Shown: in pieces, positions 20,843 through 59,277 of the stretch
How the letters are laid out: the number at the start of each line of letters is the position of its first letter
Position numbering within the stretch: the stretch's first letter is position 1
Origin: a virus
Strand: one strand, 5' to 3'
Length of the DNA stretch: 64,000 nt
IMG/VR virus record: IMGVR_UViG_3300048997_000130
Span: 1 to 64,000 of that record
Notes under the pieces: model-generated
What the model was told of the DNA's origin: nothing
Databases searched by the model: none
The model's input: only the letters and a program-made list of their open reading frames with translations
Translations under genes and position numbers: made by a program

Positions 20843-23533
20843 TTAAAATTTGTTGGACATTGTCGAGATATTGCCAAGATTGGAGAAAAAAATTTTTTCA
20901 TCTGTTGATAAGGCATGTCCGATGCGCAGTCTACAAGCTGCTAAGAAAGATGTTCCACTCGGATAATTAGAAGCAGAACCTAATTGCATAGCAGTTTTAT
21001 AATATATGGCCGGACGTGCTTTAGACTGGACAGTGTCATTGATCCATGAAAGGACTATTAGATCTCGTGAAGAAAGCGTTGAAGTCTGACCGTGTTCTAT
21101 AAGCTTTCGAGTTGCGGATGCCCATTTAGCAAGCTGCGGATGATCTTTAAATATTTGATTTACAGAACCAATAAACTCCGTACTAGATAGTAAAGTATTA
21201 TTCAAATCTCCACCAGCAAGACCTGAATCTGATGTTGATGGAATAGCTGCTGGAACATCAGCTGGATCAGGAACCAGTTTATCACTCAATTTTTTCAACA
21301 GAGCCTCGACAAGCATCTCTTGAGCTTTGTTGATCATGTCTTCAATACTGGATTGTCCGACATCGGGAGCTGGAGATTCTGTAGTAGACTCTTCAGGATT
21401 CGATGGTTCGTCTGGTGAAGAATCTAAATCATCGAGTTCTGAATCTGAATTTGAATCTGAATCTGAATCTGAATTTTGTTCATCGGCCGCGACTTTTCGA
21501 AGTCCATCGATGTGCAAATCATTTTTCCGTATTTCATATATAGTTGCAGCCTTTTCAAGCGCTGCAACAGTTGCGGTGGAATCCGGATTCAAAATATTAC
21601 GGCGTGTGGCTCCAGTAAATGCTGGATTGCGCACCCAAGAAGCTTCAATAAATTGATTACTATTAGGGACAGATACATGGCCAATGAGTTCAGCCAATTT
21701 ATGTTCAATACCATTTTCATCACGAAACATAGTATTTTTGCCATCATATAAAACATGATTACATAACTGAGTCTCATCGACAGCAACGTTCCCGCAATGG
21801 CTACATACTGTGAACAAACTAATGCAGTTAGATATGCCGATTCCATCAGCAATGTAAGAATGATCATTATCTACTTGGAGATCATATACAAATCCTTGGT
21901 AGTCATAAGTATCAATGGAATGGATTCGAGTATAAACATGATTCCCAGCAATCCAACGATCACGACTTCCGGAATTTTGCTCTTTAAAAGAACCACCAGA
22001 ATTCTTGATCTTTACTGACGGAATTTTAGAAACTCCAGACGAACGAATACGGATTTGATAATCAACTTCTGCCGCATTAGGCAGCATCTTTGTGCCAGAT
22101 CTCTGGACTTTAGTTAAAGTTCCGATAAGACCACAACGATTTAAAATCGTCATATACTGATTGGCTAAATTTTCATTTCGTGTCGAAATAAATATTTGCT
22201 TTGTTCCTCGTTTGGAAATACTGATACATCCATTAGAATCTATTATTCCTGACAAAAATGCGAGTTGATGGGACTTCGGCCACAGCATTACGTCTTGGGT
22301 CACGCATTTATCAAGAGCCTTACGACCCATTGAATGATTATCAATGAAGTCTCGGACGGCACGAGAAGTCGACAAAATGTAATCCGCATTTCGTCTAATA
22401 TGACGATGCACCATTTCCGGGGCTGATCCCCCCACAGCAAGCCGCATCTCTTTGGCAAGCCACGAAATACGATTGATTTCAGATTCTACGAATCCAGAAA
22501 TCTCTGAATATTGTTGGCTTGAGTCCAAACAAAATCCAACTCCAATAGTGGAGTTGTGTTTATTATCGAATTTCCACCCATCCCCTATCCAAAGACCTAA
22601 CAGTCGAGCTTCAGATTCTGAACAATGCGGCTTGGATTCGCCTTGCAAGATTGGCGTAGCAATTACATCTCCGGGCAGCAGATCACCGGCTTCACGATAT
22701 TCAAAGCTATAAGCAATTGGGATGATTCGCTGCAGTCCTTTTCGTTCCGTGAACTGAAGTTCAGAACGTGGAACCGCATAAAATTTATGATTATCTGTGA
22801 AACTTAAAGCAGACAGTCCAATAGGCTTAATCCGACAGATTTTCCAGCGATTCTCACGAATTTGTAAGTTATCAACTCGACAAATGTTCCCTTTTTGGGA
22901 GATGACTTCCATATCAGGACGAATATCTTCAATCGGAAGCACCGTCCCATCAGCCATCAGCACCCGGGTTCCGGGTATTCCGCAGCCCATACTCATTGCC
23001 TTAATTTCCTCAGAAAGGATATCTTGGACGAGCAATTTATGCTTGCGATCAGTTGCTACTAAAATATCTATATAGCAAGTGTTACCTAAATCTCGTGCAA
23101 TAGCGTCAACAATAAATCCTTTGGAAAGTTCAGGAATTTGAATATGTTCAAGATAATTAGGTGATCCAATAAATGTCCGGTAAGTTGCCAATAATAGCGA
23201 ACGGCTCCACGCGTCGCCATTATTATTAATGATATTCTGACATTCAGGTTTAATACGGAAATCTGGATATCTGACATCGATTTGGACGCCGCGATCTAAA
23301 CGCTTTCCGGTTTTAGATCCTTCAGGAGCATATGTATCAACAGAAGCTACTATTGTACTATGAGATAGTAAATATTGATTAGGATCGCATTTCTGAAGAA
23401 CATTCTTAGCAACACGAACAACTTGATCTTTGGAGACTGCACCTTCATGTTGTTGGCGCAGTTCTTCCATCCATTCATCAAATCCAATATTGGATTTAGA
23501 TATTATTGCATTCGCGGTACGACGAAAAGCCAT
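20843..23533 (-). CDS. Prohead protease-like head protein interrupted by an intein
   Basis: An 896-residue precursor. The ATG at 23533 (MAFRRTANA) is chosen because GAGGA lies 5 bases before it; the GTG at 23551 has no site. Extein part 1 ends KAMSMG and part 2 resumes CISLFTVCSHCGNVA after a 386-residue intein (residues 184-569), leaving about 510 residues. His130 (LEHIQIPELSKG) and Ser181 (AMSMG) could be the His/Ser pair of a prohead serine protease, and the intein sits three residues after that Ser. Cys577, Cys580, Cys591 and His593 form a zinc-like cluster. The tail has Ser-Asp repeats and helices. Its place between portal-side genes and the putative scaffold supports a maturation protease, but the family is inferred. 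Confidence 0.6.
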   Translation of the reverse strand: MAFRRTANAIISKSNIGFDEWMEELRQQHEGAVSKDQVVRVAKNVLQKCDPNQYLLSHSTIVASVDTYAPEGSKTGKRLDRGVQIDVRYPDFRIKPECQNIINNNGDAWSRSLLLATYRTFIGSPNYLEHIQIPELSKGFIVDAIARDLGNTCYIDILVATDRKHKLLVQDILSEEIKAMSMGCGIPGTRVLMADGTVLPIEDIRPDMEVISQKGNICRVDNLQIRENRWKICRIKPIGLSALSFTDNHKFYAVPRSELQFTERKGLQRIIPIAYSFEYREAGDLLPGDVIATPILQGESKPHCSESEARLLGLWIGDGWKFDNKHNSTIGVGFCLDSSQQYSEISGFVESEINRISWLAKEMRLAVGGSAPEMVHRHIRRNADYILSTSRAVRDFIDNHSMGRKALDKCVTQDVMLWPKSHQLAFLSGIIDSNGCISISKRGTKQIFISTRNENLANQYMTILNRCGLIGTLTKVQRSGTKMLPNAAEVDYQIRIRSSGVSKIPSVKIKNSGGSFKEQNSGSRDRWIAGNHVYTRIHSIDTYDYQGFVYDLQVDNDHSYIADGIGISNCISLFTVCSHCGNVAVDETQLCNHVLYDGKNTMFRDENGIEHKLAELIGHVSVPNSNQFIEASWVRNPAFTGATRRNILNPDSTATVAALEKAATIYEIRKNDLHIDGLRKVAADEQNSDSDSDSNSDSELDDLDSSPDEPSNPEESTTESPAPDVGQSSIEDMINKAQEMLVEALLKKLSDKLVPDPADVPAAIPSTSDSGLAGGDLNNTLLSSTEFIGSVNQIFKDHPQLAKWASATRKLIEHGQTSTLSSRDLIVLSWINDTVQSKARPAIYYKTAMQLGSASNYPSGTSFLAACRLRIGHALSTDEKIFFSNLGNISTMSNKF
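21438..21475. repeat. Hexanucleotide repeat coding for Ser-Asp
   Basis: A run of GAATCT units (one altered to GAATTT) on the plus strand, coding on the minus strand for alternating Ser/Asp and Asn/Ser in the C-terminal extein of the protease-like gene. Such tracts are prone to slippage and length change. Confidence 0.7.
21827..22984 (-). other. Intein in the prohead protease-like gene (386 aa)
   Basis: Starts CGIPGTRVLMADGTVLPIED (block A), has FTDNHKFYAV (block B, His), LAGLIDADG-type motifs LLGLWIGDGW and FLSGIIDSNGCIS, and ends VYDLQVDNDHSYIADGI then ISN, with Cys as +1 residue. The penultimate residue is Ser where His is usual. In the second LAGLIDADG motif the catalytic Asp is replaced by Asn (DSNG), so nuclease activity may be partly lost. 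Confidence 0.92.
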
Positions 23534-23581
23534 GCTTCCTCGAATAAACACGACATATCAAAAATCTGATTATTCGGAAGC
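23534..23581 (-). promoter_or_regulatory. Long imperfect hairpin hiding the protease Shine-Dalgarno
   Basis: In the mRNA sense GCTTCCGAATAA (23581-23570) pairs with TTATTC-GA-GGAAGC (23547-23534), 12 pairs with a 2-base bulge and a 22-base loop. The 3' arm contains the GAGGA ribosome-binding site and ends exactly at the ATG. The gene is divergent from the plus-strand gene at 23599. Confidence 0.55.
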
Positions 23582-23598
23582 GTATTTTCAGAAATAAT

Positions 23599-23994
23599 AT
23601 GAAAATATTCAAAGATGGAAAAAGGAATCGTAAAAATAAGGATATCAAAATCCAACAAGGTTTAGATGGTATCAATATTCATATTGATAAAAGGATAATA
23701 ACTGTTCCATGGCTAAATCATATTAAAATATATACGAAGAAAGCGAGTCGTGGTAATAAATATATAATGGTGGCCCATTTCCCTGATAAGAATCATGGTC
23801 TGATCGGAGAACCTGAAAATGTGAAAGAATTAGTAGATACGGTGGCTGAAATGGCGTTAATTTTGAACGGAGTAAGTCGGCCTCCAACCAATTTAATAAA
23901 TAAATTGGTAAAAGAGTGGGGACAGACAGATAAATTGGAACATTTAATATCCAAGTTCCAAGAACTAACCATCAAAAATATTATGGAAGTTTAA
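23599..23994 (+). CDS. Hypothetical basic protein (131 aa)
   Basis: Not recognised. Very basic N-terminus (MKIFKDGKRNRKNKDIKIQQ), then strands (INIHIDKRIITVPWLNHIKI) and a C-terminal pair of helices. One of very few plus-strand genes in the head region; it is divergent from the protease-like gene and its last 4 bases overlap the convergent gene at 23991. The basic N-terminal tail would suit nucleic-acid binding. Possibly a later insertion into the head operon. Confidence 0.62.
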   Translation: MKIFKDGKRNRKNKDIKIQQGLDGINIHIDKRIITVPWLNHIKIYTKKASRGNKYIMVAHFPDKNHGLIGEPENVKELVDTVAEMALILNGVSRPPTNLINKLVKEWGQTDKLEHLISKFQELTIKNIMEV

Positions 23995-24962
23995 GCAGCC
24001 CGACCGGTAGCTCTCTTAATGACTGGTAATAGTATCGGACGCATATTCGGACGAGCATGAGCTACGCGAATTAAGATCGGAAGAACTCGTCGAGCGGCTA
24101 ATTGTTTGTTGGAACTCGTATGATTGCTCCCGATCATCGGTCCAACGTCTTCAAACATATCATGCAAAGTTTGCATGAGCTTTTCAGGGTCTTTCAAATT
24201 TTCTCGTAATACTTCAATATAAGTTTCAACAGTATCTTCAAAATTAGAGACTTCGGACTCAACATCAACATCTGAAGATGGCGTCATCAGATGTTTCCGG
24301 ACGCCTTTCAACATATCTTGTCCAGTTTTCAACAAATCTCGAATTTCATCCAGAATTTGCTTTAAAGCCCCTTTATTAGGCGTATGGCGGGCTTTCTCCA
24401 TTTTATGAAGAACATCTTGGGCACCGGAGAAAAAATCCTTATTCTCTTTATATTCTTGCTGAACATAATGAGCAGCATCTTTCCAGTCAGATTGACCTTC
24501 TACGAAATTATCTATCGATGCATCGTCCAAAGAATATGCAGGTTCTTGACCTGAAGATTCAGCATCATTCTGGTCTTTTTTCAATTTCTTGAACATATTC
24601 TTGAAGAAATCACCAATACCGGCTGTATGTCCGGTCGAAGCAACTTTTCCAAGTTCATGAGAACGATTCAATATTTTACGTAGTTCGTCCTCTTCCTGAA
24701 CTACTTCACCTTCAAAAAAATTCGCAAATTCTTCAGCCGAATCATATTTTTCTAATGCAGTCTTAATTTCTTGCTGGAGAGATTTGAGCACCATAACCAT
24801 CTCTTCAACATGTTTTTCCCAAGATTTAAATCCGGGGTTAACAACAGAAACGGTACGACGCATTGCAATTAGTTTATGAACATTATTTTCCAGTTCATAT
24901 CCTAAGGTAGGATCAGACAGCTCAGAAGCAATCCGATACAATCGCTGTATATAAGGATTCAT
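23991..24962 (-). CDS. Hypothetical helical head-region protein (323 aa)
   Basis: Not recognised. The ATG at 24962 overlaps the stop of the upstream gene (ATGA) with GGAG 9 bases before. The protein is almost all alpha-helix and charged, with coiled-coil stretches (EMVMVLKSLQQEIKTALEK). The C-terminus RVLPILIRVAHARPNMRPIL then LPVIKRA resembles the motif near the end of the protein at 26288-27760 (DLLRLANSDPEAKRILGPVI). That shared tail hints at a common binding partner, for example the protease or scaffold. It lies in the head gene run. Confidence 0.65.
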   Translation of the reverse strand: MNPYIQRLYRIASELSDPTLGYELENNVHKLIAMRRTVSVVNPGFKSWEKHVEEMVMVLKSLQQEIKTALEKYDSAEEFANFFEGEVVQEEDELRKILNRSHELGKVASTGHTAGIGDFFKNMFKKLKKDQNDAESSGQEPAYSLDDASIDNFVEGQSDWKDAAHYVQQEYKENKDFFSGAQDVLHKMEKARHTPNKGALKQILDEIRDLLKTGQDMLKGVRKHLMTPSSDVDVESEVSNFEDTVETYIEVLRENLKDPEKLMQTLHDMFEDVGPMIGSNHTSSNKQLAARRVLPILIRVAHARPNMRPILLPVIKRATGRAA

Positions 24963-25720: not shown

Positions 25721-25731
25721 TAATGCTCCGA

Positions 25732-27790: not shown

Positions 27791-30700
27791 CTATTCTGTG
27801 TATCTATCTCCTTCTTTCTTCTTAGATACCAATCCGAGATTCTTGATTAGGCGATCTTTAATGTCGGAATCGTCAAGTAATTGTTCGCCAGCAGCGGACA
27901 ATAGAGTGCGTATCAATTCATTCATGTTAGCATCTTTGAGAGTGAACGCATCTTTTTGAAGCTCTGCGTGAGCATCATCCACATCAATATTGATTAGATC
28001 ATAGATATATGATATGGGCATAGATCCTTTACTATATAGATTAAACATGAAATCTTGGAGTTCGGAATTATCTCGCAGAGCCAATCTCGTAAATTGAAGT
28101 TTGGGATATAATAATTGCCTATTCCCATATTCATCTTCTTCAACATAGCCTTTTTTCTCAGCAACAGGAGCAAACAAATAATCTTCAACAAATGTTGATA
28201 CCATGTCTCGATATAAGAGATACATAGTATTCATAACATCCAAATGAATACGTTCACCTGAATATGTTGATTCACCAGTCAGCATAGATTCAGTGATTCG
28301 CAAACCAATAAACAACAATTTATTAGTGATCTCATATTCAGTACTAAGATCTAATAATCGATCTCGTGATCCAATTTCGTCCCAATGCAATTCGAAATTG
28401 GATACAATCGTAAAATCGGGATCGATCAAAGCCTGATCAACTTGATCGCGGATTCCATCAATATCCATCGATGAAGCTTTATCCGCCCAAACAATTCGTT
28501 TGGGCGTCATAGCACGAGATGCAATGGATGATTGTGCCTGACGGAGCTTATCCTGATAGTTCAACGTCCGAAGGCAGTTATGAGTGCGTGCTAAACCAGC
28601 ATAAAACGAGTGATCTTGATTTACTTCAAGACTAAAAACGGGGCCAGAAAATTCATTCGTAAGCACTTCTCGAATTTGATAATAATTATGTCCTTCAAAA
28701 ACTTTACTTTTCAAACCTAATTTACTTTGGTATCTATCAATACACAGGTCGAATAATTTAGAACTAAAACCTGATTGTTGTAATCGGAAAATATCAGATT
28801 GCAAATTAAATGCAATAGTATATAAAGGTTTAGTATTAATACAAAAAGACCCATTAGCTTGCCGCGCTGGTTTAGTTTTAACAGATTTCTTTAAACTCGG
28901 ATTTAAACCGATAGTATTTGTTAATACGAATATATGATCAACTAATTGTTTGGTTGTCATTGCGATAGAAGCTGAATGACATCCAGTTCTACCGGTAGAT
29001 TTCCAACCATCTGAATCAATTAAACCACGTAAAATTCCGAATTTGAATTCTGGTGATGTGGAATGAATCCAATTCGGTAATTTCTTGTCTGATTTATTAT
29101 GACCAAAATTCCGACCTACCCATCGAGAAAACCAATCATCATGAATTTGCAACCATCCGAGTTCATATTCATGTGATTGCAGATCCAGTCCTAGATTCTT
29201 CAAAACATCAAATATGAACGCGACTGATTTAGCGCTTGCCTCAGAATCTTGTTGCCAACATATACCAGTTGGGCCATATTTAGTTGCAGATGGTCTGTTG
29301 GATTCAGTCCATCCATCACCAAGATAATAACCTATGAAATAACCCAGATCAGCAGTCAATTCTAATGATTTGGGACAAAATTGAACATAATTCAATTCAT
29401 ATAAAGGCCTTGGATCCAGATCCGCTCTATGGAACCGGCGAGCTTGTGATTTATATGTAGAATCGGATTGAACGCAAACGGTCAAATAACCGAGTTTGGA
29501 AAGGTCTTTTAAAATAGCTCTATAAACAGATTTGCCAGCAATTCCAAATTTCTCTTGGAATGTAGCATATAGCATATCAATTGGCGAATCCAAATTCCGA
29601 ATCCAATCACAAATTTGGACAAGAATTTGGCTCCGCATATCGCGTTGCGGATTATTATCTGTTCGACGATGAGTTAAAATCAACTCTCCGTCATGGATAT
29701 CCGCTGATATTGATAATGCATGCTTGGTCTTCGTCCTCCGACAATTGAATGTCCATTGTTCAGAATTAAAAAACGTATTTAAATCAAAATCATGTAGAAC
29801 GAGATCGGCATTAATATGGGCAATTTCAATATAATCACCAGGCCGAGCATTTTGAGCTTCTACATCAAGAAATTGATTATCTCTCAAAATCCGGATTTTA
29901 TGATCCGATGTGGACCATATAATATTAGGGAGTTTGCAAATTTGTAGTCCAACAGTTTTTCCTGAATATTGACGGGAACCATGTTGGAACGATCTCCAGT
30001 TACCACTCCCACCAAGCACTTGATCAGTCTGCGGATCTAATTCCTCAATCGGAATTTGTAAAACTTCACCGTTTCGAAGTGCAGTGATTTCGGTCCCTGG
30101 AAGATGGCAACGTTCTAATATTGATATACCCCGATCGTTATATGCTGATCGTTTATGCGCTAAATAATAACAGAATGAAGAACATAAGAATTCTTCATAC
30201 GGACTCGTATTCAACGGAATAGGCTGCCCATTTAAAAGATTGTTACGAATTTCTTCTGGAATGTCGTTAGCAATACGAACGGCTTCCGGATCTTTGGTAT
30301 CTTCAGCACGCAAAACAAGCAAACGATCTTTCTCGGATGGAATAAGTTCCATCCGAGATTTATTAGTATATTGGAAGACTTCAAGTTTCACTTGTTCAGG
30401 AGGCAGGATTTGAAGTCTCTCCCATCCAAGATAATTATCCTGAACATATTTCAAAATGGCGGTTTGTTGTTCATTCTCGGGTTTGGGTTTCCTGGTCTTG
30501 ATTTTTTTAGTATTAGAACGCCCAGCATAATCAATTTCCCCGATTTCTTCTTCCGTAATGTCTGAGATTAAGTCTTCAGGAATTTCATTATGTAAGTCAT
30601 GATCTTCACAAAAGATAAATACTCCGCCGTGAAGCCAATATTCATGAGTGGCATCATATAAAGTTTGAAATAATCGGACTCGCTTGCACATTTCTTGATA

Positions 30701-32206
30701 AAAATGCAAGATTTGTTTATTCCGTTTAGGATCCTTGCCTTTTGGCAAAGATAAACGAATTTTGGACATTGGTACGTCGGTATTATGGGTCGCCAACCCA
30801 TAAGCTATGTAACTCTTCCGATCTCCATCACCATCGACTTCAATGTTATATACTGGTCCATCATATTGAACAGTTCCAACTTTTTCGATTCTTCTCAATA
30901 CGTTATTATTGATTTGAATACAGTTTTCACGAGTTGAATCGGAATGATAGCCATCTTGCACAAAATTAGCATATCTCGAAAATTCAGAATGGAAACGATA
31001 CGGAATAATGATCCGATAAATCGAACTATTTGATTTAAAATCTGTGTCCGAGTCTTCCGGTTCATGACGATGGAGCGTTGGTGCATATCCAACCTTCAAA
31101 GCAAGAGCATAAATTTGATGCGCTAATTGTTTGGATATTGTCGTAGCGACATATCCACTTTTAGTAAGACTACCATCACCATTCCAATATGCACCTAGGA
31201 ATTCTAGTATATCTTCTCTAGCTGAATCAATAATATCGAGGCTAAGTTGTTTATATAGGGACTCACTTCCAACGTGTTTTAAACAGAATTCTGCAAAATC
31301 TTTTTTATAACATCTAACTTCACATACACTGCAGTCTTTTTGCTCACGTTTCTGAGCAACGTGCTTATATTCATTCCCAAACAATTCAACAATTTCGTTA
31401 GCAATGGAGTCGAATTTATCAATATTTAGAGAAAAAATTACTTTATCTAGTTTATCGTATTTAGTATATGATAAAGAGCCTTCAGCCGCATAATATCCGA
31501 GTAAACGCAATTGCGCTCGATTAAAAATAGACTCAGAATTGACCAGAGAAGGTGAACATATATAATCGCCAATTTTTAAGTCCTTGGCAAATACGAATCC
31601 CGGCTTCCCAAAATCAAGACTATGTTGAGAGGGTTTGTAATCAATTTGCTCAGCACGATAAACTAGAAACGGATGGTTTTCAGTGCAATCAATATCTCCC
31701 TGAATATTTTGCACCTTCAAACGAGTGACTGGCCCACATATATCATGTTTGAAGGTTTGAATTACTTTGGTCGATTCTCCGAATCCATTAATGACTTCAT
31801 CACCAACACTCAATGATTCAATGGAATTGACTGATCCATCTTTCATCATCACCGGAGCGCCGGGTGGGAAACAATGGAAGTCAATTGCCGCTCCCACTAT
31901 AGGATGTACGTTATACCAAAATCTAAATAATTCGCGCTTTTCGCGTTCTGATTGCGGTAATTCAAGGAAGTCTGTAGAAAGCTGGGGACTATAAAATTGA
32001 GAATCCGCGGCACTTATAGAGCCGGATCCATTATTACCATATCCGGAAAACCCACCACTACTGATCATAGCAACGCGTATGGATTGCGAAGCTTCTCTGC
32101 GAGCTTGTTTTTCTAGTTTAGTGAGTTGACGAGTCGGAACCGATTGGACATCCACGTGTTTAACTGGATGACCTACTCGAGTTTTGTTACGGGATTTGTT
32201 AGCCAT
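27791..32206 (-). CDS. Portal protein with two inteins
   Basis: A 1471-residue precursor; removal of two inteins (residues 112-475 and 700-1210) leaves 596 residues, a normal portal size. Extein junctions rejoin portal motifs: AIDFH with TDVPMSKIRLSLPKG, and GISILER with CLRTLNYQDKLRQAQ. Other portal features are FRFWYNVHPIVGAA in the N-terminal region and LDVMNTMYLLYRDMVSTF near the C-terminus. The portal is the dodecameric ring at one capsid vertex through which DNA enters. It lies downstream of the terminase gene with two small genes between. Both inteins must splice for a working portal. The family is inferred from motifs and from its position beside terL. Confidence 0.88.
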   Translation of the reverse strand: MANKSRNKTRVGHPVKHVDVQSVPTRQLTKLEKQARREASQSIRVAMISSGGFSGYGNNGSGSISAADSQFYSPQLSTDFLELPQSEREKRELFRFWYNVHPIVGAAIDFHCFPPGAPVMMKDGSVNSIESLSVGDEVINGFGESTKVIQTFKHDICGPVTRLKVQNIQGDIDCTENHPFLVYRAEQIDYKPSQHSLDFGKPGFVFAKDLKIGDYICSPSLVNSESIFNRAQLRLLGYYAAEGSLSYTKYDKLDKVIFSLNIDKFDSIANEIVELFGNEYKHVAQKREQKDCSVCEVRCYKKDFAEFCLKHVGSESLYKQLSLDIIDSAREDILEFLGAYWNGDGSLTKSGYVATTISKQLAHQIYALALKVGYAPTLHRHEPEDSDTDFKSNSSIYRIIIPYRFHSEFSRYANFVQDGYHSDSTRENCIQINNNVLRRIEKVGTVQYDGPVYNIEVDGDGDRKSYIAYGLATHNTDVPMSKIRLSLPKGKDPKRNKQILHFYQEMCKRVRLFQTLYDATHEYWLHGGVFIFCEDHDLHNEIPEDLISDITEEEIGEIDYAGRSNTKKIKTRKPKPENEQQTAILKYVQDNYLGWERLQILPPEQVKLEVFQYTNKSRMELIPSEKDRLLVLRAEDTKDPEAVRIANDIPEEIRNNLLNGQPIPLNTSPYEEFLCSSFCYYLAHKRSAYNDRGISILERCHLPGTEITALRNGEVLQIPIEELDPQTDQVLGGSGNWRSFQHGSRQYSGKTVGLQICKLPNIIWSTSDHKIRILRDNQFLDVEAQNARPGDYIEIAHINADLVLHDFDLNTFFNSEQWTFNCRRTKTKHALSISADIHDGELILTHRRTDNNPQRDMRSQILVQICDWIRNLDSPIDMLYATFQEKFGIAGKSVYRAILKDLSKLGYLTVCVQSDSTYKSQARRFHRADLDPRPLYELNYVQFCPKSLELTADLGYFIGYYLGDGWTESNRPSATKYGPTGICWQQDSEASAKSVAFIFDVLKNLGLDLQSHEYELGWLQIHDDWFSRWVGRNFGHNKSDKKLPNWIHSTSPEFKFGILRGLIDSDGWKSTGRTGCHSASIAMTTKQLVDHIFVLTNTIGLNPSLKKSVKTKPARQANGSFCINTKPLYTIAFNLQSDIFRLQQSGFSSKLFDLCIDRYQSKLGLKSKVFEGHNYYQIREVLTNEFSGPVFSLEVNQDHSFYAGLARTHNCLRTLNYQDKLRQAQSSIASRAMTPKRIVWADKASSMDIDGIRDQVDQALIDPDFTIVSNFELHWDEIGSRDRLLDLSTEYEITNKLLFIGLRITESMLTGESTYSGERIHLDVMNTMYLLYRDMVSTFVEDYLFAPVAEKKGYVEEDEYGNRQLLYPKLQFTRLALRDNSELQDFMFNLYSKGSMPISYIYDLINIDVDDAHAELQKDAFTLKDANMNELIRTLLSAAGEQLLDDSDIKDRLIKNLGLVSKKKEGDRYTE
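28577..30109 (-). other. Portal intein 2 (511 aa)
   Basis: Begins CHLPGTEITALRNGEVLQIP, has STSDHKIRIL (block B), a winged-helix-like insert (KSVYRAILKDLSKLGYL), LAGLIDADG motifs YFIGYYLGDGW and ILRGLIDSDGW, and ends FSLEVNQDHSFYAGLAR then THN, with Cys as +1. Both nuclease motifs keep Asp, so homing activity may be intact. Confidence 0.93.
30782..31873 (-). other. Portal intein 1 (364 aa)
   Basis: Begins CFPPGAPVMMKDGSVNSIES, has CTENHPFLVY (block B), LAGLIDADG motifs RLLGYYAAEGSLS and FLGAYWNGDGSL, then VYNIEVDGDGDRKSYIAYG and the C-terminal THN with Thr as +1 residue. All splicing residues look canonical. In the first nuclease motif Glu replaces Asp (AAEG). Confidence 0.93.
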
Positions 32207-33104: not shown

Positions 33105-36100
33105 TTATCTTCTACGATATTTAGGTATACGGCGTTCTTTTGGTGGAAGACCATGTAAATAAGATCGATTCCGCTGGAATTGATGATATCCAACAGACAC
33201 CGGCCGAGTGATTACATTAGTATTAATATCACCCATCAATAAAGCAGATGGATTCTCACGAATATATTCAGCAGCTAAATATGCACTACGTACAAGCGAA
33301 TCTGAAAAATCATCGTGTTTCCCTAACATATCTGGAGCTTCAACTACTAAAATATTCTTTCCGCCGGATGTAGCTTGAAGCTCTAACAATTCTCGAATAT
33401 GCGGTGAGTGACGAATTTGAATTGATGCTAAAGAGTTGTCGATTTCTGGAAGTGGATAATCATATAAAGCTAGTTGTCGGCTATACATCAACATCTTAGC
33501 AGTCTGATACATGACCGAGCTATCAGATGTTGTGAAATTTTTCATATCAAATTGAATTAAACCGGCTTTATGTAATTTTTGTTCAAATATAATGCCAGCC
33601 CATTGATCAAATAAACCTCTTTGAATATAGAATCGCTTCGAAATAATTACTAACCAGTTAATTATTTCATCTAAATCTAACTTTGATTGATCTTGAAGCG
33701 TTAGAGCATATGGTACTAATGGAGTAGATAAGTGTGGATTAATTTCTTTCCAATTCCGACCTGCATACCACATTTCATGGTAACCAAGTTGAATTTTCCC
33801 ATTATTGATATGAGTCAAAGATATTGAAGTCCCGTCTTTGACCAAAGCAAAATCAAGTCCAGCAAAGAATGGTTCCCGAGGATTCCCACGGATCAAAGGA
33901 CGTAAATCAGCCACACAACAATCCAATAAGTCATGAGCATTTTCGATCCAACCGCGGATACGATCTGAGAATTGAGCGCCATATTCTGTTTCGAATCCAT
34001 TAGGATCCTTGGCAAATTCTATTTCATATTCCATCGGATCAATGGTCGGATTCACTTCCCAAGTAGGGGCTTGAATCATCAACATATTGGACGATGCGAT
34101 ACCATTCGAAAGCGCTAATTCATATAATTTATAGAACAATCCAGCCTTCGGACCAGGCGAAGAAATACAAATCATTCGACCGTCACTGGGTCCAATAGGA
34201 ATGCGCCGATCGTTGGCGTCTTTAGGTGAAAATTGCTTTAAAGAAGGCGACATCGCCTTATACACTTGTTCGTCGGAGCTTTTTCCGTCATTGATGAAAA
34301 AAGCGAATTCGTCAAGAATACAACAAATAACGCCACGACCACGAAGACCTTTGGCGACTGAACTTTTAAATGTCGATGTTATAGTTGCTTTTCGCGCGTC
34401 ATCTTTAAATTTTTCGTTATCATTAGCAGTCCGGAACTTCATATATACTTGCGTATCATGAGTCATGGAACTTTTGAAATAATCTACTTGAGCAACATGG
34501 CTAGACATTTCACCATAAACAATGCTAGCTTGGTCTTTATCATTGGCTATGCAAAATAATCGAATCTCAGATCCAGGGAGCATGCCATAATATGCTTGCG
34601 GACAATAACGACGAAGAAGTTTATATGTTTCATAAGCAGAAATTAATCCAGCCAAAGCGCTGTTATGATTAGTCATACCATTCGCAACAAATGACTCACC
34701 ATTTGGCACTGTCAAATCATAGACTCTGCATTTATCTTGACCAATCGTTACAACGGGATCAAAATAATAATTATTATTTTGAAGTGTCTCAAGTTCTGCA
34801 ATAAGAACTGGGTCTGCAAAATATTCTTTCGCTTTCTGAATTACCCGATGCAGTCTTATGTAACTTATATTTTCTCCTGAACCAGGCTTTGCGACGTTTC
34901 CGCATGTTTCTTTTAACCAAGTTCGTTTCCTATTAGGAACACTTCCGGATTTGTTATTACATGCAATCGGGATAGATTGTATTAACTTGCGTAAACGTTC
35001 TTTTTGAAATGGAATAGCTTCAGTATCAGAATGCCCATTATTACCGTCTTCAATCCCTCGAATCAGTATTTTTCGTTTTCTATCCGTTATAAATCCAATT
35101 TGCTCAGCAAACAACTTCCTCGATTCATATCCAAGGATATGAATGCAATAATAATATCGCTTATATTTCTTATTCCATTTCTGACGGATTCTAGATATGA
35201 TTCCGAAATTCAGAAGGAGTATTTGGATTTCTGTCGCTAAACGAGTAGAAGCCGTACAAGCACTAATAAGCGATCCTGATTTTTCAAGACCTCCGTCTGT
35301 CTCAAAGAATCCTCTTAAAAATGCCGCTACAACAGATTTTGGACTTTTAAAAATCGACCACGGAACATGCTTATTGCTAGGTTTAGATGAATCATATCCA
35401 AGAAGCCTCAAAAGCTTTCTTACAGCTGTGGAATATATAGATATTGACCAAGGAAATTTTGGACATGTGGATGATCGAGATTTCTTCCTGTATATTGTGT
35501 GATGATCAAATTCGCTGTCTAGTAATAATTCGACAAATTCACGAAGTTCTTCGCATCCACCGGTTATTTGAATAGAGCTGGTTCGTCCCCATGTTCCATC
35601 ACCGACCAATAATCCGAGCAATAATCCCCAGCGTTCATTTAAAATATCAGGAAATTGAATATTACGACGATTGCAATATTTATATTTATCAAATGGGATA
35701 TGGGTTGGCAACCACTCAATGGTTGATCCCGATCGTTTATTAAACAGAACCTTGCGGAAAATTATTCCAAATTTGGCACGCAATGTTGCCAGTAATTTTT
35801 GCAGTTCAGGAATCGACATTCCGAGTTGCTTTGCAACCTCAGCTCGAGACATCGTGACTGGATCATCCAATAAACGGAGCCATTCACAAAATTTTTCTTT
35901 ATTAAGTTGTGGCCGGCTCAAGTGTGGAGGTATTAGACATTGTTCATGGAACTGTTGAATTGATAAATAATCTTGAGTCCATAAATCAGTATTCCTGTGA
36001 ATGGCAACAAAATCGCCGGTTTGAATATCTGTTAGATATTTCCAAGTTACCACTCCATCATGACCGAGGACTTTAATTCGATGATTATCAGTCCCTGTAA

Positions 36101-36707
36101 TATTATAACCACAGTAAGTCGTTATTGATTTAACATCACGAACACCATCATTATAAAATTTAGCAGATTTGCTATAATGCTTACGACCTTCTTGGGCTAC
36201 TGTTACGTTCAAATCTTGCCATTCTGGTCCAGCAGGGTCTCCGAGTTCCTGGATTGATATAATACCTTTCTCAGTTAAAACTAAAGTATCACCTTTCACA
36301 CATTTCCCACTTCTCCTACCGATTGCCAAAATCAGTTCGTGGCGTTCTTTTTTATCTTGTTCTTTAATATTGCATCGACCATTATCATACAAATATCTGA
36401 GATACTGGACTTCAGTTAAATCAACAACATCTTTTTTCCGGAAAGTTGATGAAACTCGTATTCTATCAGATGGTTTTTCCGGAAGTATAGTATCCAACTG
36501 AATATTATAATATATTTTAAGAATAAATTTCTGGACTGGATATAGTCCATTAGGTATTAAATTAAATTGATCAATAAATTCAATAATATTTAAGAATTGT
36601 GGATTATATTCATCTTTATCTGGAGTTTTATGTTTTCGCTTCTCATGTAAGAATTTATCAAGTGTTCCAGATAAATCACTTTTATCACGCTTTTCATTAC
36701 TAGGCAT
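33105..36707 (-). CDS. terL: Terminase large subunit with intein
   Basis: A 1200-residue precursor; excising the 547-residue intein (136-682) leaves 653 residues, usual for TerL. The intein divides the Walker A motif: AIGRRSGK before and SALAGL after. Walker B with the catalytic Glu is VICCILDEFAFF. The RNase H-like nuclease domain starts at FFAGLDFALVKDGTS with its first Asp, and later SDSLVRSAYLAAEYI carries a late Asp. TerL translocates DNA into the prohead through the portal and cuts the concatemer. Downstream are two small genes and the portal; upstream is a candidate small subunit. Confidence 0.95.
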   Translation of the reverse strand: MPSNEKRDKSDLSGTLDKFLHEKRKHKTPDKDEYNPQFLNIIEFIDQFNLIPNGLYPVQKFILKIYYNIQLDTILPEKPSDRIRVSSTFRKKDVVDLTEVQYLRYLYDNGRCNIKEQDKKERHELILAIGRRSGKCVKGDTLVLTEKGIISIQELGDPAGPEWQDLNVTVAQEGRKHYSKSAKFYNDGVRDVKSITTYCGYNITGTDNHRIKVLGHDGVVTWKYLTDIQTGDFVAIHRNTDLWTQDYLSIQQFHEQCLIPPHLSRPQLNKEKFCEWLRLLDDPVTMSRAEVAKQLGMSIPELQKLLATLRAKFGIIFRKVLFNKRSGSTIEWLPTHIPFDKYKYCNRRNIQFPDILNERWGLLLGLLVGDGTWGRTSSIQITGGCEELREFVELLLDSEFDHHTIYRKKSRSSTCPKFPWSISIYSTAVRKLLRLLGYDSSKPSNKHVPWSIFKSPKSVVAAFLRGFFETDGGLEKSGSLISACTASTRLATEIQILLLNFGIISRIRQKWNKKYKRYYYCIHILGYESRKLFAEQIGFITDRKRKILIRGIEDGNNGHSDTEAIPFQKERLRKLIQSIPIACNNKSGSVPNRKRTWLKETCGNVAKPGSGENISYIRLHRVIQKAKEYFADPVLIAELETLQNNNYYFDPVVTIGQDKCRVYDLTVPNGESFVANGMTNHNSALAGLISAYETYKLLRRYCPQAYYGMLPGSEIRLFCIANDKDQASIVYGEMSSHVAQVDYFKSSMTHDTQVYMKFRTANDNEKFKDDARKATITSTFKSSVAKGLRGRGVICCILDEFAFFINDGKSSDEQVYKAMSPSLKQFSPKDANDRRIPIGPSDGRMICISSPGPKAGLFYKLYELALSNGIASSNMLMIQAPTWEVNPTIDPMEYEIEFAKDPNGFETEYGAQFSDRIRGWIENAHDLLDCCVADLRPLIRGNPREPFFAGLDFALVKDGTSISLTHINNGKIQLGYHEMWYAGRNWKEINPHLSTPLVPYALTLQDQSKLDLDEIINWLVIISKRFYIQRGLFDQWAGIIFEQKLHKAGLIQFDMKNFTTSDSSVMYQTAKMLMYSRQLALYDYPLPEIDNSLASIQIRHSPHIRELLELQATSGGKNILVVEAPDMLGKHDDFSDSLVRSAYLAAEYIRENPSALLMGDINTNVITRPVSVGYHQFQRNRSYLHGLPPKERRIPKYRRR
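34662..36302 (-). other. TerL intein (547 aa)
   Basis: Begins CVKGDTLVLTEKGIISIQEL, has GTDNHRIKVL (block B), a helix-turn-helix-like insert (VAKQLGMSIPELQKLLATL), LAGLIDADG motifs GLLLGLLVGDGTW and FLRGFFETDGGL, and ends VYDLTVPNGESFVANGM, then NHN, with Ser as +1 residue. It interrupts the ATP-binding P-loop, a site where only precise loss is tolerated. Confidence 0.94.
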
Positions 36708-43431: not shown

Positions 43432-45234
43432 TCAATTCCGCATCAACACGAATTTGGTCTTGGATTTACCATATACCTTCAAATAATCATATTTGGAAAC
43501 ATAATCTGATTCTTTCATATTATTTTTGATTGCATGATTATATAATGTCTTTTTATGGATTACAAAACCTTCTGAATTAATATAATGATAATCCGGTTTG
43601 GTTTGATGGAGTTCTTCCCAATTCGCAGCTTTGTAAATTATTCCTAAATGACCAAATGTGGAATCGGAAAAGCTGACAAGGGTAGAAAGTCGTGAGAATT
43701 GCTTAAAAATGGAAGCCGAACAGCGTGAAATGAACCAAGAAGCAAAATTTTTCTTTTGATATTGAGGATGAATGCAGAATCTATCAAGTTCCAAAACTTG
43801 AGAAGGGCTAAGATTCATGGAAGTTGCAACTTCCATGCGGACGGGAGTTGCAAATTTGCAGATGGCAATCAATTTATCATCAAGGAAGGCTCCGAAGATT
43901 TGTTTAGCAGAACGCCCAAATCCTGCATAATGAAATGATTGTAAAAATTCTTCGGATTCCGAATAATAAGAATTCGGCAATTTATCTTGAACGTTCAACG
44001 GCCGAATGGAAACATTAGTAAACGAAAAATCTTGAGAAGCTATTGGCGAATCTTCACCAAATAATTCACGAATCAGCTTTTGTTTAATAATGCCCGGATT
44101 CAAAAATTCTCTCTCCCACAGATATATTAATTTATATTCGGGGAAATATTCATCAACATAAGTGAATTTAGATGCGTCCTGTGATTGTCGCGTGGAGTGC
44201 CAATATTCGCCTTGACATTCAATGAGTAAATTATGTGAAGGAATGAATAAATCGAATTCCCAATAACCAATCACATGATGTCTAACGTAGGGAATGTCCA
44301 AAGCATTCAATAATGTTTGGACAACCCTCTCCAGAATACTATCTTTCCCATTAATTAATACTGAAGCACGAGCTCGAGCCATTTTCTCGCGGAATGCTGG
44401 ATCTTTCCATAATTTATCCATCTTCTCACGAAATATAGGATCTTGCCATTGCTTCTTAGCATTCTCTGCCTTCAATTGTAGAAGAGCTGGATCAATGGCT
44501 GCAGCTTTTTGTTTTTCAATATAAGCAGGATCTTTCCAAAGTTCTCGAATCCGATTGGTCATGACTTCCCGATATTCAGGAATGGTCCACAACAACTTCT
44601 GGGACTCGATAATCAACTCACGATATTCAGGATCGTTCCAACGTTCAATAACTAATCGAGATTGGAGCTGCCTGTGTTCAAGGCTGGAATGCAACGAGTC
44701 TTGCTTAGCTCGGTATTCAGGATCTTTCCAAACATCGCTGATGATTTGCGCATGATCAGAAACTTTCTTTGGATCAGACCAAATCTTTTCATAATGAGCT
44801 TTACGTTCTGGGTCCTCCCATAGTCCTTTAACTAATTCCGAGGATTGTTGTCTCTTTTCGGGATCATTCCAAATCGCAGTCGAAATTTGTTTTTGTTTTT
44901 CTGCAAACTCCGGGTCGGACCATAAATCTTTAGAAATTTGTGATTGGCGTTCGCGTTTTTCATCTGACCAAGATTCAACCATCCCAACTCGATGTTTCTC
45001 TTTATATTCAGGGTCTTGATGTTTCTCTTTCATGCCGCACGATAAACAACGATAAACTCCAACACGGCTGATTGTCCGAAGCACAGAAACAATTTTTAGT
45101 GTTTTCTTATCACCACAACCACAAATGACGCCGATATCAGATTGACGAGTGATATGGGATAATTGAGAAGCAAATTTTAGATCAATGATTTGTTCTGGAA
45201 TTCCATATTTCTTAATCTTATCTAAAATACTCAT
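43432..45234 (-). CDS. Homing endonuclease with DPE repeats fused to a Mom-like acyltransferase domain
   Basis: From the ATG at 45234 the product is 600 residues. Order: a Cys-containing N-terminus (CGCGDKK, CLSCGM), about eleven repeats of the W-x-DPE-(Y/F)-R type with DNA-binding helices (NUMOD-like), a PD-(D/E)XK or Vsr-like nuclease (WEFDLFIPSHNLLIECQGEY), and a C-terminal GNAT/Mom-like domain (LELDRFCIHPQYQKKNF, SFSDSTFGHLGIIYKAANWE, KTKFVL). The combination recalls phage homing endonucleases that carry this domain, as I remember them. The domain could modify DNA or serve recognition. It lies between the zinc-finger gene and the regulator gene, a likely insertion site. No Shine-Dalgarno is seen. 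Confidence 0.78.
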   Translation of the reverse strand: MSILDKIKKYGIPEQIIDLKFASQLSHITRQSDIGVICGCGDKKTLKIVSVLRTISRVGVYRCLSCGMKEKHQDPEYKEKHRVGMVESWSDEKRERQSQISKDLWSDPEFAEKQKQISTAIWNDPEKRQQSSELVKGLWEDPERKAHYEKIWSDPKKVSDHAQIISDVWKDPEYRAKQDSLHSSLEHRQLQSRLVIERWNDPEYRELIIESQKLLWTIPEYREVMTNRIRELWKDPAYIEKQKAAAIDPALLQLKAENAKKQWQDPIFREKMDKLWKDPAFREKMARARASVLINGKDSILERVVQTLLNALDIPYVRHHVIGYWEFDLFIPSHNLLIECQGEYWHSTRQSQDASKFTYVDEYFPEYKLIYLWEREFLNPGIIKQKLIRELFGEDSPIASQDFSFTNVSIRPLNVQDKLPNSYYSESEEFLQSFHYAGFGRSAKQIFGAFLDDKLIAICKFATPVRMEVATSMNLSPSQVLELDRFCIHPQYQKKNFASWFISRCSASIFKQFSRLSTLVSFSDSTFGHLGIIYKAANWEELHQTKPDYHYINSEGFVIHKKTLYNHAIKNNMKESDYVSKYDYLKVYGKSKTKFVLMRN

Positions 45235-45275
45235 ATAATATAATAAAACAACCAACAACTCATTTCCAAGAATGA

Positions 45276-54585: not shown

Positions 54586-54603
54586 TAAATATTAGTATAC
54601 CAA

Positions 54604-55602
54604 TTATTCATCAACAAGGCCAGCTTCAGCAGCTTCAGCGGTATCAAGAATAACTTGTTTCAGATCGGTCGGATAATCAGTCCGCTCTAACTGCGCCAAA
54701 AAATTTTGTACTCCACCATCTTGAGGAGTTTGAGACTGCGTGCGTAATATGTGTATGAAATCTTCTAAATCGCGGCGATTAGTATCAAGTGTTTTTTTGA
54801 GTTCTAAATCAAATATTTGTTTAGCGTCATCACATGGAATTTTATGAACATCAATAGAAATACCTTGAGAATTGCATGTAATATGAGTAACTTTGGGGAT
54901 CCTATCTAAATTCTCAAAAGTTAATGCACCACGTGATACTGCTCCAACATTCACAAATTGAACACCTAAATGGGTTTGGACACCTTGGTCTTTGTGATAA
55001 TGTCCGAACACATATACATCAGGGCATCCTTCATATACTAAATCGCGATAATCAAAAATTTTCTCGCTGAAGAATGAACTAAATTTCTCACTCGGAGAGT
55101 GAGCAGCAAGTGCATGTACTAAAGCAATTGTATAGGTATCGCCGTCTCGCTTCCGGACTTTATCACGGAGTCCTTCATCATCAAGGTCAACAGTGAAATC
55201 GACACCAACCACTCGAACATTCATAGATCCAGATGTAAAAGTCTGATCTTGAATGTGTTGGAACACATTCGATCGATATAATACTCCAATTGGTTGGCGT
55301 GGTATTGATCCAGGATCATTATAAGACATATCGTGATTGCCGGACACTGCATGCGTCGGACAGGAATATGCACGGTGAATGCGAGCAACTTCAGCCACGG
55401 TCCCCATAGTAGTTTTGTTAGAGGCCTTTACGTGAAAGAGATCGCCAATTCTGAACAAAGCGTCCGCTGAAACTCGCTTCGCAAGCTCGCCTTGCCAAAT
55501 CATTTTCTGCAAAATTGAATTTTTGTAATTATCTTTGCGAAAACCCGGAGCTATCTCGCAAAGATGCTCGTCGGATGACGTGACAAAACGAATTTCAGAC
55601 AT
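54604..55602 (-). CDS. sbcD: SbcD/Mre11-like exonuclease
   Basis: From the ATG at 55602 (MSEIRFVTSSDEH) the product is 332 residues. Metal ligands are in RFVTSSDEH (D-x-H), FRIGDLFH, VSGNHDMSYND, LVHALAAHSPS and VFGHYHKDQG (GHxH). This is the calcineurin-like nuclease fold of SbcD, Mre11 and phage gp46/47 partners. It processes double-strand ends with an SbcC/Rad50 ATPase; an ATPase half is encoded at 51615. GGAG is 13 bases before the ATG. A 147-base gap separates it from the helicase gene. Confidence 0.88.
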   Translation of the reverse strand: MSEIRFVTSSDEHLCEIAPGFRKDNYKNSILQKMIWQGELAKRVSADALFRIGDLFHVKASNKTTMGTVAEVARIHRAYSCPTHAVSGNHDMSYNDPGSIPRQPIGVLYRSNVFQHIQDQTFTSGSMNVRVVGVDFTVDLDDEGLRDKVRKRDGDTYTIALVHALAAHSPSEKFSSFFSEKIFDYRDLVYEGCPDVYVFGHYHKDQGVQTHLGVQFVNVGAVSRGALTFENLDRIPKVTHITCNSQGISIDVHKIPCDDAKQIFDLELKKTLDTNRRDLEDFIHILRTQSQTPQDGGVQNFLAQLERTDYPTDLKQVILDTAEAAEAGLVDE

Positions 55603-55749
55603 ATTAAATATTACACTCCAAAATCCAACGTTTATTATTGGAATTGTTTCTTTATAAATTAAACAATCACTCGGTAACGTATAAATTACGCGGGCATAGT
55701 CTAATTGCAAGGCGCAAATTCACCCCGGATTTGAGATGTTAGGTCAAAA

Positions 55750-58700
55750 CTAACTGCCCGCTCCAACAGCTTGAAGTGCTTCTACGAGAGTCTCGGGAGC
55801 ACGCAAACTCTCTAAAACAAATTCGGAAATTTGTTTTCCTAAATCTGAATTCCGAACGTTATCGCGTTCATTGGCAGCAGCATATAAAAATGCGTTCGGA
55901 TCACCGAATAGAAATACCTTTTTCTTGGCACGAGTAATAGCTGTATAAATAAGATTCCGATATAACATCATCCCGTATTGCATAGTCATTGGCATAAGGA
56001 TATAATCGAACTCTCTACCTTGGCAATTCCATCCGCAAAATCCATTTTGAATAAAACGATGACCATCCGGGACTTCAACACACATAGATGGTCCATCAAA
56101 TATCTCAATACGCGATATAACACTATGATGGAATTTAATCCGCTCCCGTAAAGCTCGTGATTCGTTGTTTTCTATCTGAATCCGAGATAATAGGGATTCC
56201 AATTGATGGCGAGACATATAACCACGCGTCAGAACATTTTTGTCCGCAAAAGTAAAAAATTTAGGACCACCGTTAATATCTCTAATTGATAACGCTTCAG
56301 CTTTAAGTATTGGAACTTGATAATGGCATTCATTTCCATATAGAGATTTCGCTCGTAGTTGTTTCTCATCAGTTATGAAACCGATAACATCAGCAAATCG
56401 ACCAACATTCCGACCATATATATAAATAATACGATAAGTTTTCACACACCCATCACTCAGTGTTTGACGACGCTCGCCATATCCAGATATGATGCCAAAA
56501 CGAAGTAACATCACTTTCACGTCTTTATATAATGATTCATAGCAGGTTAGTAACTCAATATGATCAACAGTCCCTAGATCTGGATTCATATTGACAGTGC
56601 CATCTTCAAACAAACCGCGCAAGAAGGCTGCTTGCACGGTCAGTGAAGAACGTAAAACAGATAATGGAACAGATTTATTTTCCGGTCCGATTCCTCCAAT
56701 ATCTAGAAGCCAGCGAGATAAAAATGTGGAATGGACTTCAATACCAGCGGTTCCGTTATGATCAATATGTTTCGGATGGCATTTAAAAAGTAACTTACAT
56801 AATTCATCGAAACGTATGATTACATCATTGGATGATGTAATCATACGAAATCCACCATCAAACACAGTTCCATCTGCGACCATTATGCCAAGAAATTCCG
56901 CCATATGAACATCCAATTCCGTAGGCACCGGATATTGGACTTCATTATAATGACCGCTGATAGGAGCAGGAAGAAACCTATTCGATTGCTCCCCCCATTG
57001 AACGCCAAGACGCAAAGCCAGTAAATTTCCTTCCACAAGCTCTGAAGCCGGACGACGAATATATCCATATTTAGAATCCCAAGTATCCATTCCATGATCA
57101 GGAGTGGTTTCAAGTACGTAACCATCTGAAGTGGTTATACGAAGCATACGACTGGAAGGATTATTGACTTTGGAATGATATTCAGCGCCGCCAGAAGGAG
57201 TAGCAATAGAACCATCAGATGGTATATCAGAAATCCGAATTAAACCTTCTGGAGTCTCAACTAGTGTATCCGGAGACACACATTTATGCGCTGTACATGC
57301 ATATGCAACATTCAACATTGAACGACATTCTTCAATCTTGAATGTGAATGTCTTATCTATATATTCAGGAACAGTAGATTCATGATTGAACCATTCAAAT
57401 ATTTTGACTTCAACCACGTCATCTTTAGCCGATATACGTTGGACTTTTCCAACGTCTCCATTGAAAATCATTCTATCATAGTCATTCTTCACGACCATGA
57501 TTCGATCCCCTTCATATAAATCACAAACGCCATGTTTTATTTTATAAGCATTGCCAGCGATATACATAGGATTTAATATCTCTCGCAATTTCTTATTTAG
57601 ATTATTAACTCCAAGTTCGCCATCATATTTAGGAGCAATAACTTGAAATAATGCGTCACGTGTCATCATTCTTTCAGTGAGGGCACATATTTCGTCAGCT
57701 ACTTGAGGCTGTGGGAAACGGAAAAATACGAATTGAGAATCCTTTCGAAAATCAGTATCTATTGCATCCCCAGCAAGTATCTGATGTGCCACTGTTATAA
57801 TATCAGACCTATCAGTCTGTCGATAAATCCGAGTCAATGATACATGCGGAACATCATCACAACGCATCAGATTATTGAGAACATAACCAGCGCCAACTGA
57901 TGGTAATTGTGCAGAGTCCCCAACACATATCAAAATAGTAGTAGATGGAAGCGCCGAAATTAAATGATAAAATGTTGCTCCATCAACCATTGAAGTTTCA
58001 TCAACAATGACAGCATCAACATGGAATTTATTCGATGAATGAAATTCCCATCCGCCATCTCGTTTATATCCAAGAGCCCGATGAATTGTAGAAGCCGGTT
58101 TCCCCGTCACTTGTGATAATCGTTTAGAAGCAATACCAGTTGGTGATAATAATACATAATGTAGATGATTCTCTTCGAATAAATCAACAAATGCAGAAAT
58201 TAATGTGGTCTTCCCGGTTCCAGGATAACCTGATATAACACACACTTTGGAATGTTCAAGCAGCATTAATGCTTGACGTTGATGCTCCGAAAGCGTTATA
58301 TTACGACGTTTTTCATATTTATCCAAAAATCCAGATAGATCACCCAAATCTTTTGGTCCATTGGCAAGTAAGTCCACTAAATATTTAGCAGATTCAGATT
58401 CATATTGCCAATTTTGGATTGAATATATTCGGGAATTATCAACGACTATATCATCATCTTCTTTTAATTGATCAAGAGCTGTGTAGAACGAAATATCTGA
58501 TAAATATTCACCATGAGAAAATGGATCGAGTCCAATTTTTTTGAACAGCCTTTGAACATACTCACGAATCTGATCCGCGGATACATACATATGTCCTTCA
58601 GATGATGATAATTCATGGATGATATATAAAATCATTGCATTAACACGGCGTTGATCGTCTCGACCGACTCCCAATTGCCGAGCAACGTTATCGGACGTTT

Positions 58701-59277
58701 GAAATCCAACGCCAGGACATTCATACAGCCAGTATGGATTTTCTTTGACTAATCGAACTGATTCAATTCCGAATCTAGTATATACGGATCGAATCTGAGA
58801 AGCAGTTAAACCTAAATTACTAAGGAATATTGCGGCCGTTCTCTGTTCAGAAGCTACTCGCCACTCATCAATTATAGATTCAATCTGTTTCTGGCTAAGA
58901 AAATCACAATCGGCAAGCTTTTCGGGCTCCGTATCCAACAATGTTATAAGATCATCACCATAAACTGCATATAATTTTCCAGCTGTTACTGGACCAATGG
59001 ACGGAACGTTATTCACTAAATATGTGATTATTCCAGATCTACTTTTTTCTGGTAATACTTCACAAGTAGTCATTCGAAATTCACGTCCATACTGGGGATG
59101 ATCGCCCCAGATGCCACGTGCATGAATTTTAATACCGACAGCTACAGGTTGACCAAGGAATGATCCCTTAACTGTAACTACAGACGCTGGTTTCTCAGGT
59201 TGAACCTTAAGAATATAATATCCAGTGCCCCGGTTGGAATACATAATTCCAACAATTTTTCCGATGAGTTCTTCCAC
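55750..59277 (-). CDS. recD2: RecD2-like helicase with intein
   Basis: A 1175-residue precursor; excising the intein (666-1084) leaves 756 residues. Order: an OB-like N-terminus (MEELIGKIVGIMYSNRGTGY), helix-hairpin-helix repeats (90-210), then a superfamily 1 helicase with Walker A SGYPGTGKTT (349-358), Walker B VIVDETSM (423-430), GDSAQLPSVG, and IYRQT. After the intein the C-terminal UvrD-type motif resumes with CQGREFDYILMPMT, so the intein divides TAHK-CQGRE, part of the helicase core. RecD2 unwinds DNA 5'-3' and helps recombination or fork repair. The start is GTG. Confidence 0.92.
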   Translation of the reverse strand: MEELIGKIVGIMYSNRGTGYYILKVQPEKPASVVTVKGSFLGQPVAVGIKIHARGIWGDHPQYGREFRMTTCEVLPEKSRSGIITYLVNNVPSIGPVTAGKLYAVYGDDLITLLDTEPEKLADCDFLSQKQIESIIDEWRVASEQRTAAIFLSNLGLTASQIRSVYTRFGIESVRLVKENPYWLYECPGVGFQTSDNVARQLGVGRDDQRRVNAMILYIIHELSSSEGHMYVSADQIREYVQRLFKKIGLDPFSHGEYLSDISFYTALDQLKEDDDIVVDNSRIYSIQNWQYESESAKYLVDLLANGPKDLGDLSGFLDKYEKRRNITLSEHQRQALMLLEHSKVCVISGYPGTGKTTLISAFVDLFEENHLHYVLLSPTGIASKRLSQVTGKPASTIHRALGYKRDGGWEFHSSNKFHVDAVIVDETSMVDGATFYHLISALPSTTILICVGDSAQLPSVGAGYVLNNLMRCDDVPHVSLTRIYRQTDRSDIITVAHQILAGDAIDTDFRKDSQFVFFRFPQPQVADEICALTERMMTRDALFQVIAPKYDGELGVNNLNKKLREILNPMYIAGNAYKIKHGVCDLYEGDRIMVVKNDYDRMIFNGDVGKVQRISAKDDVVEVKIFEWFNHESTVPEYIDKTFTFKIEECRSMLNVAYACTAHKCVSPDTLVETPEGLIRISDIPSDGSIATPSGGAEYHSKVNNPSSRMLRITTSDGYVLETTPDHGMDTWDSKYGYIRRPASELVEGNLLALRLGVQWGEQSNRFLPAPISGHYNEVQYPVPTELDVHMAEFLGIMVADGTVFDGGFRMITSSNDVIIRFDELCKLLFKCHPKHIDHNGTAGIEVHSTFLSRWLLDIGGIGPENKSVPLSVLRSSLTVQAAFLRGLFEDGTVNMNPDLGTVDHIELLTCYESLYKDVKVMLLRFGIISGYGERRQTLSDGCVKTYRIIYIYGRNVGRFADVIGFITDEKQLRAKSLYGNECHYQVPILKAEALSIRDINGGPKFFTFADKNVLTRGYMSRHQLESLLSRIQIENNESRALRERIKFHHSVISRIEIFDGPSMCVEVPDGHRFIQNGFCGWNCQGREFDYILMPMTMQYGMMLYRNLIYTAITRAKKKVFLFGDPNAFLYAAANERDNVRNSDLGKQISEFVLESLRAPETLVEALQAVGAGS
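56026..57282 (-). other. RecD2 intein (419 aa)
   Basis: Begins CVSPDTLVETPEGLIRISDI, has TTPDHGMDTW (block B), LAGLIDADG motifs FLGIMVADGTVFDG and FLRGLFEDGTVN, and ends MCVEVPDGHRFIQNG, then FCGWN, with Cys as +1. The penultimate residue is Trp where His is usual. The second nuclease motif is one residue shorter than canonical. Confidence 0.92.

Follow-up and report, generated by a model that had tools for sequence, protein, structure and literature searches.

What are the long inserts that interrupt the head and packaging genes of this phage, and how did so many of them come to reside in one genome? The stretch analysed here (the window) comprises the first 64 kb of a viral record of 196,676 bases (G+C 40%). 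Since many related contigs reach 300-450 kb or more, the record is probably a piece of a huge-phage genome.

Host genes and their inserts

A preliminary description of the window had proposed five inteins in four genes, and this is borne out by the splice residues, the unbroken frames and the gap-free junctions of relatives. All five are complete, and the four genes that house them are long, unbroken reading frames of the minus strand (Table 1). An intein HMM search over the whole record, as had been suggested, was made with the intein C-terminal model; it recovered the five, a sixth in the class II ribonucleotide reductase NrdJ, just past the window (record 65216-66475, 420 aa), and no further ones. 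Together they total 7,941 bases and are spread over 44.6 kb. It had also been correctly noted that head and packaging genes (protease, portal and large terminase, TerL) predominate among the hosts and that the extein junctions rejoin known motifs.

Table 1. Host genes and inteins of the window. Intein coordinates run from Cys1 to the last Asn; a slash marks a splice junction.
Feature	Position	Strand	Description
Protease gene	20843..23551	-	one intein; precursor 902 aa, spliced 516 aa; uninterrupted homologues in relatives
Protease intein	21827..22984	-	386 aa; SMG/C...SN/CISL
Portal gene	27791..32206	-	two inteins; precursor 1471 aa, spliced 596 aa
Portal intein 1	30782..31873	-	364 aa; AIDFH/C...HN/TDVP
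Portal intein 2	28577..30109	-	511 aa; SILER/C...HN/CLRT
Large terminase (TerL) gene	33105..36707	-	one intein; precursor 1200 aa, spliced 653 aa
TerL intein	34662..36302	-	547 aa; in P-loop, GRRSGK/C...HN/SALA
RecD2 helicase gene	55750..59277	-	one intein; precursor 1175 aa, spliced 756 aa
RecD2 intein	56026..57282	-	419 aa; TAHK/C...WN/CQGREFD

The identities of TerL, portal and RecD2 come from family models. For the protease, phrog_18299 ("head maturation protease") gives a match, and a model of an uninterrupted homologue finds viral-library proteins named prohead or head maturation protease (best 5.7e-7; TM about 0.3-0.4). The host gene is thereby similar to HK97-like prohead proteases, remotely; neither a PDB fold match nor a Pfam peptidase was found for it. 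The Ser of the SMG motif directly preceding the intein does not vary among 34 homologues and is presumably the protease nucleophile.

In such phages, genes for the portal, protease or terminase can escape annotation or be misnamed, as in Eggerthella phage LE2-3 (MW679026.1 45222-48335, L227). There, a protein annotated as a "tRNA synthetase" (QXJ36673.1) matches head maturation protease families and has an intein at SMGLN/C, two residues from the present point. Both protease and intein are missed by the annotation, and this intein differs from the one in the window, with 23-27% identity to it.

Intein anatomy

All six inserts possess the Cys1, the block B TxxH, the terminal Asn and the +1 Cys, Ser or Thr that define class 1 inteins, the +1 residues of the protease, portal 1, portal 2, TerL and RecD2 inteins being C, T, C, S and C. 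The splice residues are also kept in the alleles of the six. The penultimate His is present in four of them; Ser takes its place in the protease intein and the five close alleles of that intein, and Trp in the RecD2 intein. Among the family models, Pfam LAGLIDADG_3 is above cut-off in all four window proteins. TIGR01443 (intein C-terminus) is above cut-off for the protease, TerL and both portal inteins and below it for RecD2. Pfam Intein_splicing passes its cut-off in portal and TerL and falls short of it in protease and RecD2. For the protease intein, a structure model built with six alleles (pLDDT 83.1) adopts the HINT fold and matches the TliVMA, PI-SceI and PI-PfuI inteins with E values of about 1e-13 to 5e-16, the best PDB match being the TliVMA intein 7qsu (E 5.5e-16).

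Chance is excluded by the gap-free junctions in relatives, by inteins that other contigs carry at four of the same five points and by the fold match of the protease intein. We put at about 95% the probability that the six inserts are inteins; we read them as class 1, with homing endonucleases of the LAGLIDADG type, and their splicing is predicted from their residues.

Empty and occupied alleles in relatives

The insertion alleles were compared, as had been suggested, and at all five points the host gene of relatives is continuous, residue for residue. For instance, the host genes of LR745208.1 cross all six intein points without a gap, at TerL GRRSGK/SLLAA, portal AIDLH/TELPLSK and SILER/CLRVL, protease SMG/CSIDG, RecD2 VTVHR/CQGQE and NrdJ APTG/TIGYL. 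Several points are also empty, junction-exact, in Tunturi_5 and phage G. The inserts are thus in frame and have precise inteinless alleles, and most relatives possess the same genes without these inteins.

IMG/VR was scanned twice with portal and TerL alignments, which yielded 160 loci; alignments were needed, as a search of IMG/VR with the TerL extein as a single protein gave no match. Allelic inteins were found in other phage contigs at all four head-gene points, namely protease SMG/C (protease-189), portal AIDFH/T (portal-111) and LER/C (portal-335) and TerL GRRSGK/S (TerL-135). Besides the inteins described here, the tree set holds 6, 3, 3 and 16 of them, respectively. Further points are occupied in relatives: TerL-225, TerL-262, portal-99, portal-164, protease-108/111 and protease-133. 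The RecD2 point (RecD2-665) is empty in 30 of 30 further relatives and the NrdJ point (NrdJ-579) in eight of eight, so that both are occupied only here among those compared; another reductase point, NrdJ-387 (SNP/CSEF), is occupied in two relatives. Directly after the RecD2 point, this phage and L187 have Cys; most close relatives have Val, with which splicing could not occur.

On a portal tree of 116 rows, protease-189 is occupied in 7 and empty in 70 (at least 6 changes), TerL-135 is occupied in 14 and empty in 90 (at least 12), and portal-335 is occupied in 4 and empty in 112 (at least 4). The counts for portal-111 are identical to those of portal-335 (4, 112, at least 4), with its occupied alleles under-sampled because one portal search pattern straddles the junction. 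This distribution demands almost one change per occupied row: occupancy on the phage tree is patchy, as homing elements would give. Moreover, the inteins cluster with those of the same gene and point rather than with those of the same genome (6 changes, where shuffling gives 20.7 on average). A single private clade of all protease and portal inteins was supported as long as outsiders were left out and was broken once outside phage inteins were added. As a separate observation, the portal-99 intein of L050 belongs to the portal-111 lineage and lies 12 residues upstream, at FWYA/SHPIVG; it may be a second relocation, with no common flank.

Proposed homing, inheritance and decay

These observations lead us to infer selfish class 1 inteins that homed among related huge phages and then decayed. 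Each host gene would be translated as a single long precursor, from which the HINT domain would excise itself and join the exteins, restoring protease, portal, terminase, helicase and NrdJ. During co-infection, the endonuclease of an active intein would cut the inteinless alleles of related phages and repair would copy the intein in; after its arrival the endonuclease would decay. The insertion points lie at conserved motifs (the P-loop, the HKCQG region of the helicase, the invariant SMG), so that imprecise loss would be costly and recipients would share the target.

The endonucleases are in different states. The portal 1, portal 2 and TerL inteins keep both canonical LAGLIDADG acids. In the protease intein the second acid is replaced by Asn (IIDSNG), where close alleles have the acid, one acid of the NrdJ intein is likewise replaced by Asn (FAANG), and the second motif of the RecD2 intein is one residue short. 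Three of the six endonucleases thus look damaged, judging by their motifs. The LAGLIDADG modules that had been called complete are indeed present, but complete does not mean active, the motifs of the protease and RecD2 inteins being damaged. It is reasonably probable that at least one of the six inteins is still active in homing. Outside the window, a free-standing LAGLIDADG frame of 246 aa that belongs to no intein is found on the plus strand (record 144442-145182).

A recent transfer into this phage was considered and rejected: the inteins show no unusual base composition and no clear surplus of identity over the exteins. At most shared points, their identity matches that of the exteins or falls below it. 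The inteins may instead have been in the lineage for long, passed on vertically with many losses along the way, and homing would then no longer be involved. Part of the data fits this reading: identities are 63-71% for the portal-111 intein against 64-69% for its exteins and 37-48% against 38-56% at TerL-135, endonuclease motifs are decayed in half of the six inteins, and inteins and exteins have similar base composition. Nevertheless, we regard it as unlikely, because occupied rows are scattered among empty ones, which would require very many exact losses, and because none of the relatives compared has an intein at the RecD2 or the NrdJ point.

From the positions of the inserts, virion assembly would depend on several splicing events. 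It might be imagined that head assembly is regulated through the inteins, waiting for the splicing of protease, portal and terminase. Several head-gene inserts in one genome, a protease intein adjoining an invariant Ser, the five inteins that a relative, G016, carries in three neighbouring head genes, and the mycobacterial DnaB intein, whose splicing is known to be conditional (PMC6195587, in the part consulted), would be in keeping with such a role. Yet close relatives make heads from the same genes without inteins, the occupied sets vary from phage to phage and similar inteins sit in the helicases, polymerases and NrdJ of relatives, all of which makes regulation highly improbable.

Probable movement of inteins within the terminase gene

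The 21 TerL inteins form one clade (100/98), outside which the tested outside phage inteins fall. Inteins at TerL-225 (L053) and TerL-262 (L044, L047 and G016) nest within those at TerL-135, and the TerL intein of the window is the next branch to this nested group. With full-length inteins a separate TerL-135 clade is rejected (p-AU 0.0003 on the full tree and 0.004 on the TerL-only tree). When the splicing and endonuclease parts are taken apart, the p-AU for a single TerL-135 clade is 0.22 and 0.055, and neither rejects at 5%; with either part, the TerL-262 inteins and the P-loop intein of G016 are placed side by side. The three points all read GK/S: GRRSGK/S in the P-loop, GPEGK/S and VDDGK/S. 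GK followed by S, T or C occurs one to three times in most TerL proteins. A common DNA target of the three points was sought and rejected: nothing above chance was found over 48 bp, and over 18 bp there is a mild excess (ranks 37-71 of 1375-1567) for which the GK/S codons account.

The nesting, together with the GK/S shared by all points, suggests movement within the gene to splice-compatible look-alikes. It seems slightly favoured that a TerL intein moved from GRRSGK/S in the P-loop to GPEGK/S and VDDGK/S, and that such a move needs a splice context and no extended DNA target. The moved copies belong to relatives and none lies in the window. Ectopic movement of inteins is regarded as very rare (PMC1635734), and the clade test was devised after the tree had been seen, with off-P-loop inteins in only a handful of contigs.

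If the tree placement were wrong, the TerL-225 and TerL-262 inteins could have come from unrelated genes and not from the TerL P-loop. The p-AU values of the separate parts leave room for this, as does the fact that relocation was hypothesized once the tree was known, and gene conversion in G016, which carries both kinds, could have drawn them together. We hold this origin to be doubtful, given the single clade that excludes outside phage inteins, the rejection with full-length inteins and the GK/S found at all three points.

Intein load and known systems

The preliminary description had called the inteins dense for any phage. Six is indeed a high number, but it is not the maximum of the lineage. 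G016 (362 kb) has seven: two in the protease, one in the portal, two in TerL, one in a Snf2-type helicase and one in a DnaB-like protein. LR745208.1 (485 kb) gives eight intein C-terminal matches, that is about eight inteins. Two of these are mini-inteins of 149 and 167 aa, in RecD2 (L017) and in a DnaX-like clamp loader (L016 9019-10932); both sit at DE/C of ATPases, and no endonuclease motif was found in either. In 35 further IMG/VR relatives the count ranges from 0 to 7, and among named records it is three in CPt10, four in Lak-A1 (two of them weak), two in phage G and none in Tunturi_5 or LinStu. Near 355.2 kb of LR745208.1 (L186 1708-2667), a C-terminal intein half lies near the start of a 320-aa frame without an in-frame N-terminal half, as in a broken or split intein.

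Inteins of this kind are already known, and it is an ordinary mechanism in an unusual setting that is met here. According to the part of PMC5050341 consulted, mycobacteriophages carry inteins in terminase and portal genes; splicing has been demonstrated for five of the TerL inteins and cleavage for two, and TerL1-a is inserted directly after the P-loop Lys, the same position as the present TerL intein. Those phages are unrelated to this one, and the prohead protease is not named among the intein hosts in that part of the source. A single genome with four inteins in three head genes as well as in RecD2 and NrdJ is unlike the mycobacteriophage cases described there. Several self-splicing elements have also invaded the genomes of crAss-like Zeta and Delta phages, TerL included (PMC7886860), to be compared with the six inteins of this phage. 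Finally, the haloarchaeal MCM gene holds several inteins in a single gene, as do the phages considered here, and it likewise raises the question of whether a decayed endonuclease can be carried along (PMC10643990). The TerL pair of G016 offers a parallel read from sequence, as its second intein (TerL-262) has lost both acids (LVGGG, FETGG) and its first keeps both.

For one and the same set of essential phage genes, the group thus provides natural alleles with no, one or several inteins. Such a series makes it testable by which routes inteins reach new points, whether flanking residues (GK/S) or the DNA target determine settlement, whether an intact endonuclease nearby can carry a dead one along, and what price a phage pays for many inteins in its head genes.

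Other genes of the window

Two further loci on the minus strand were observed. At 43432-45258, a frame of 608 aa is an odd fusion of three parts: W-x-DPE-type repeats, an HNH/homing-endonuclease-like part (phrog_559 3e-26, phrog_3339) and a Mom-like acyltransferase (PF25680 2e-20). At 1287-4947, genes for an epimerase/dehydratase, a C-methyltransferase and a glycosyltransferase follow one another, which suggests sugar modification.
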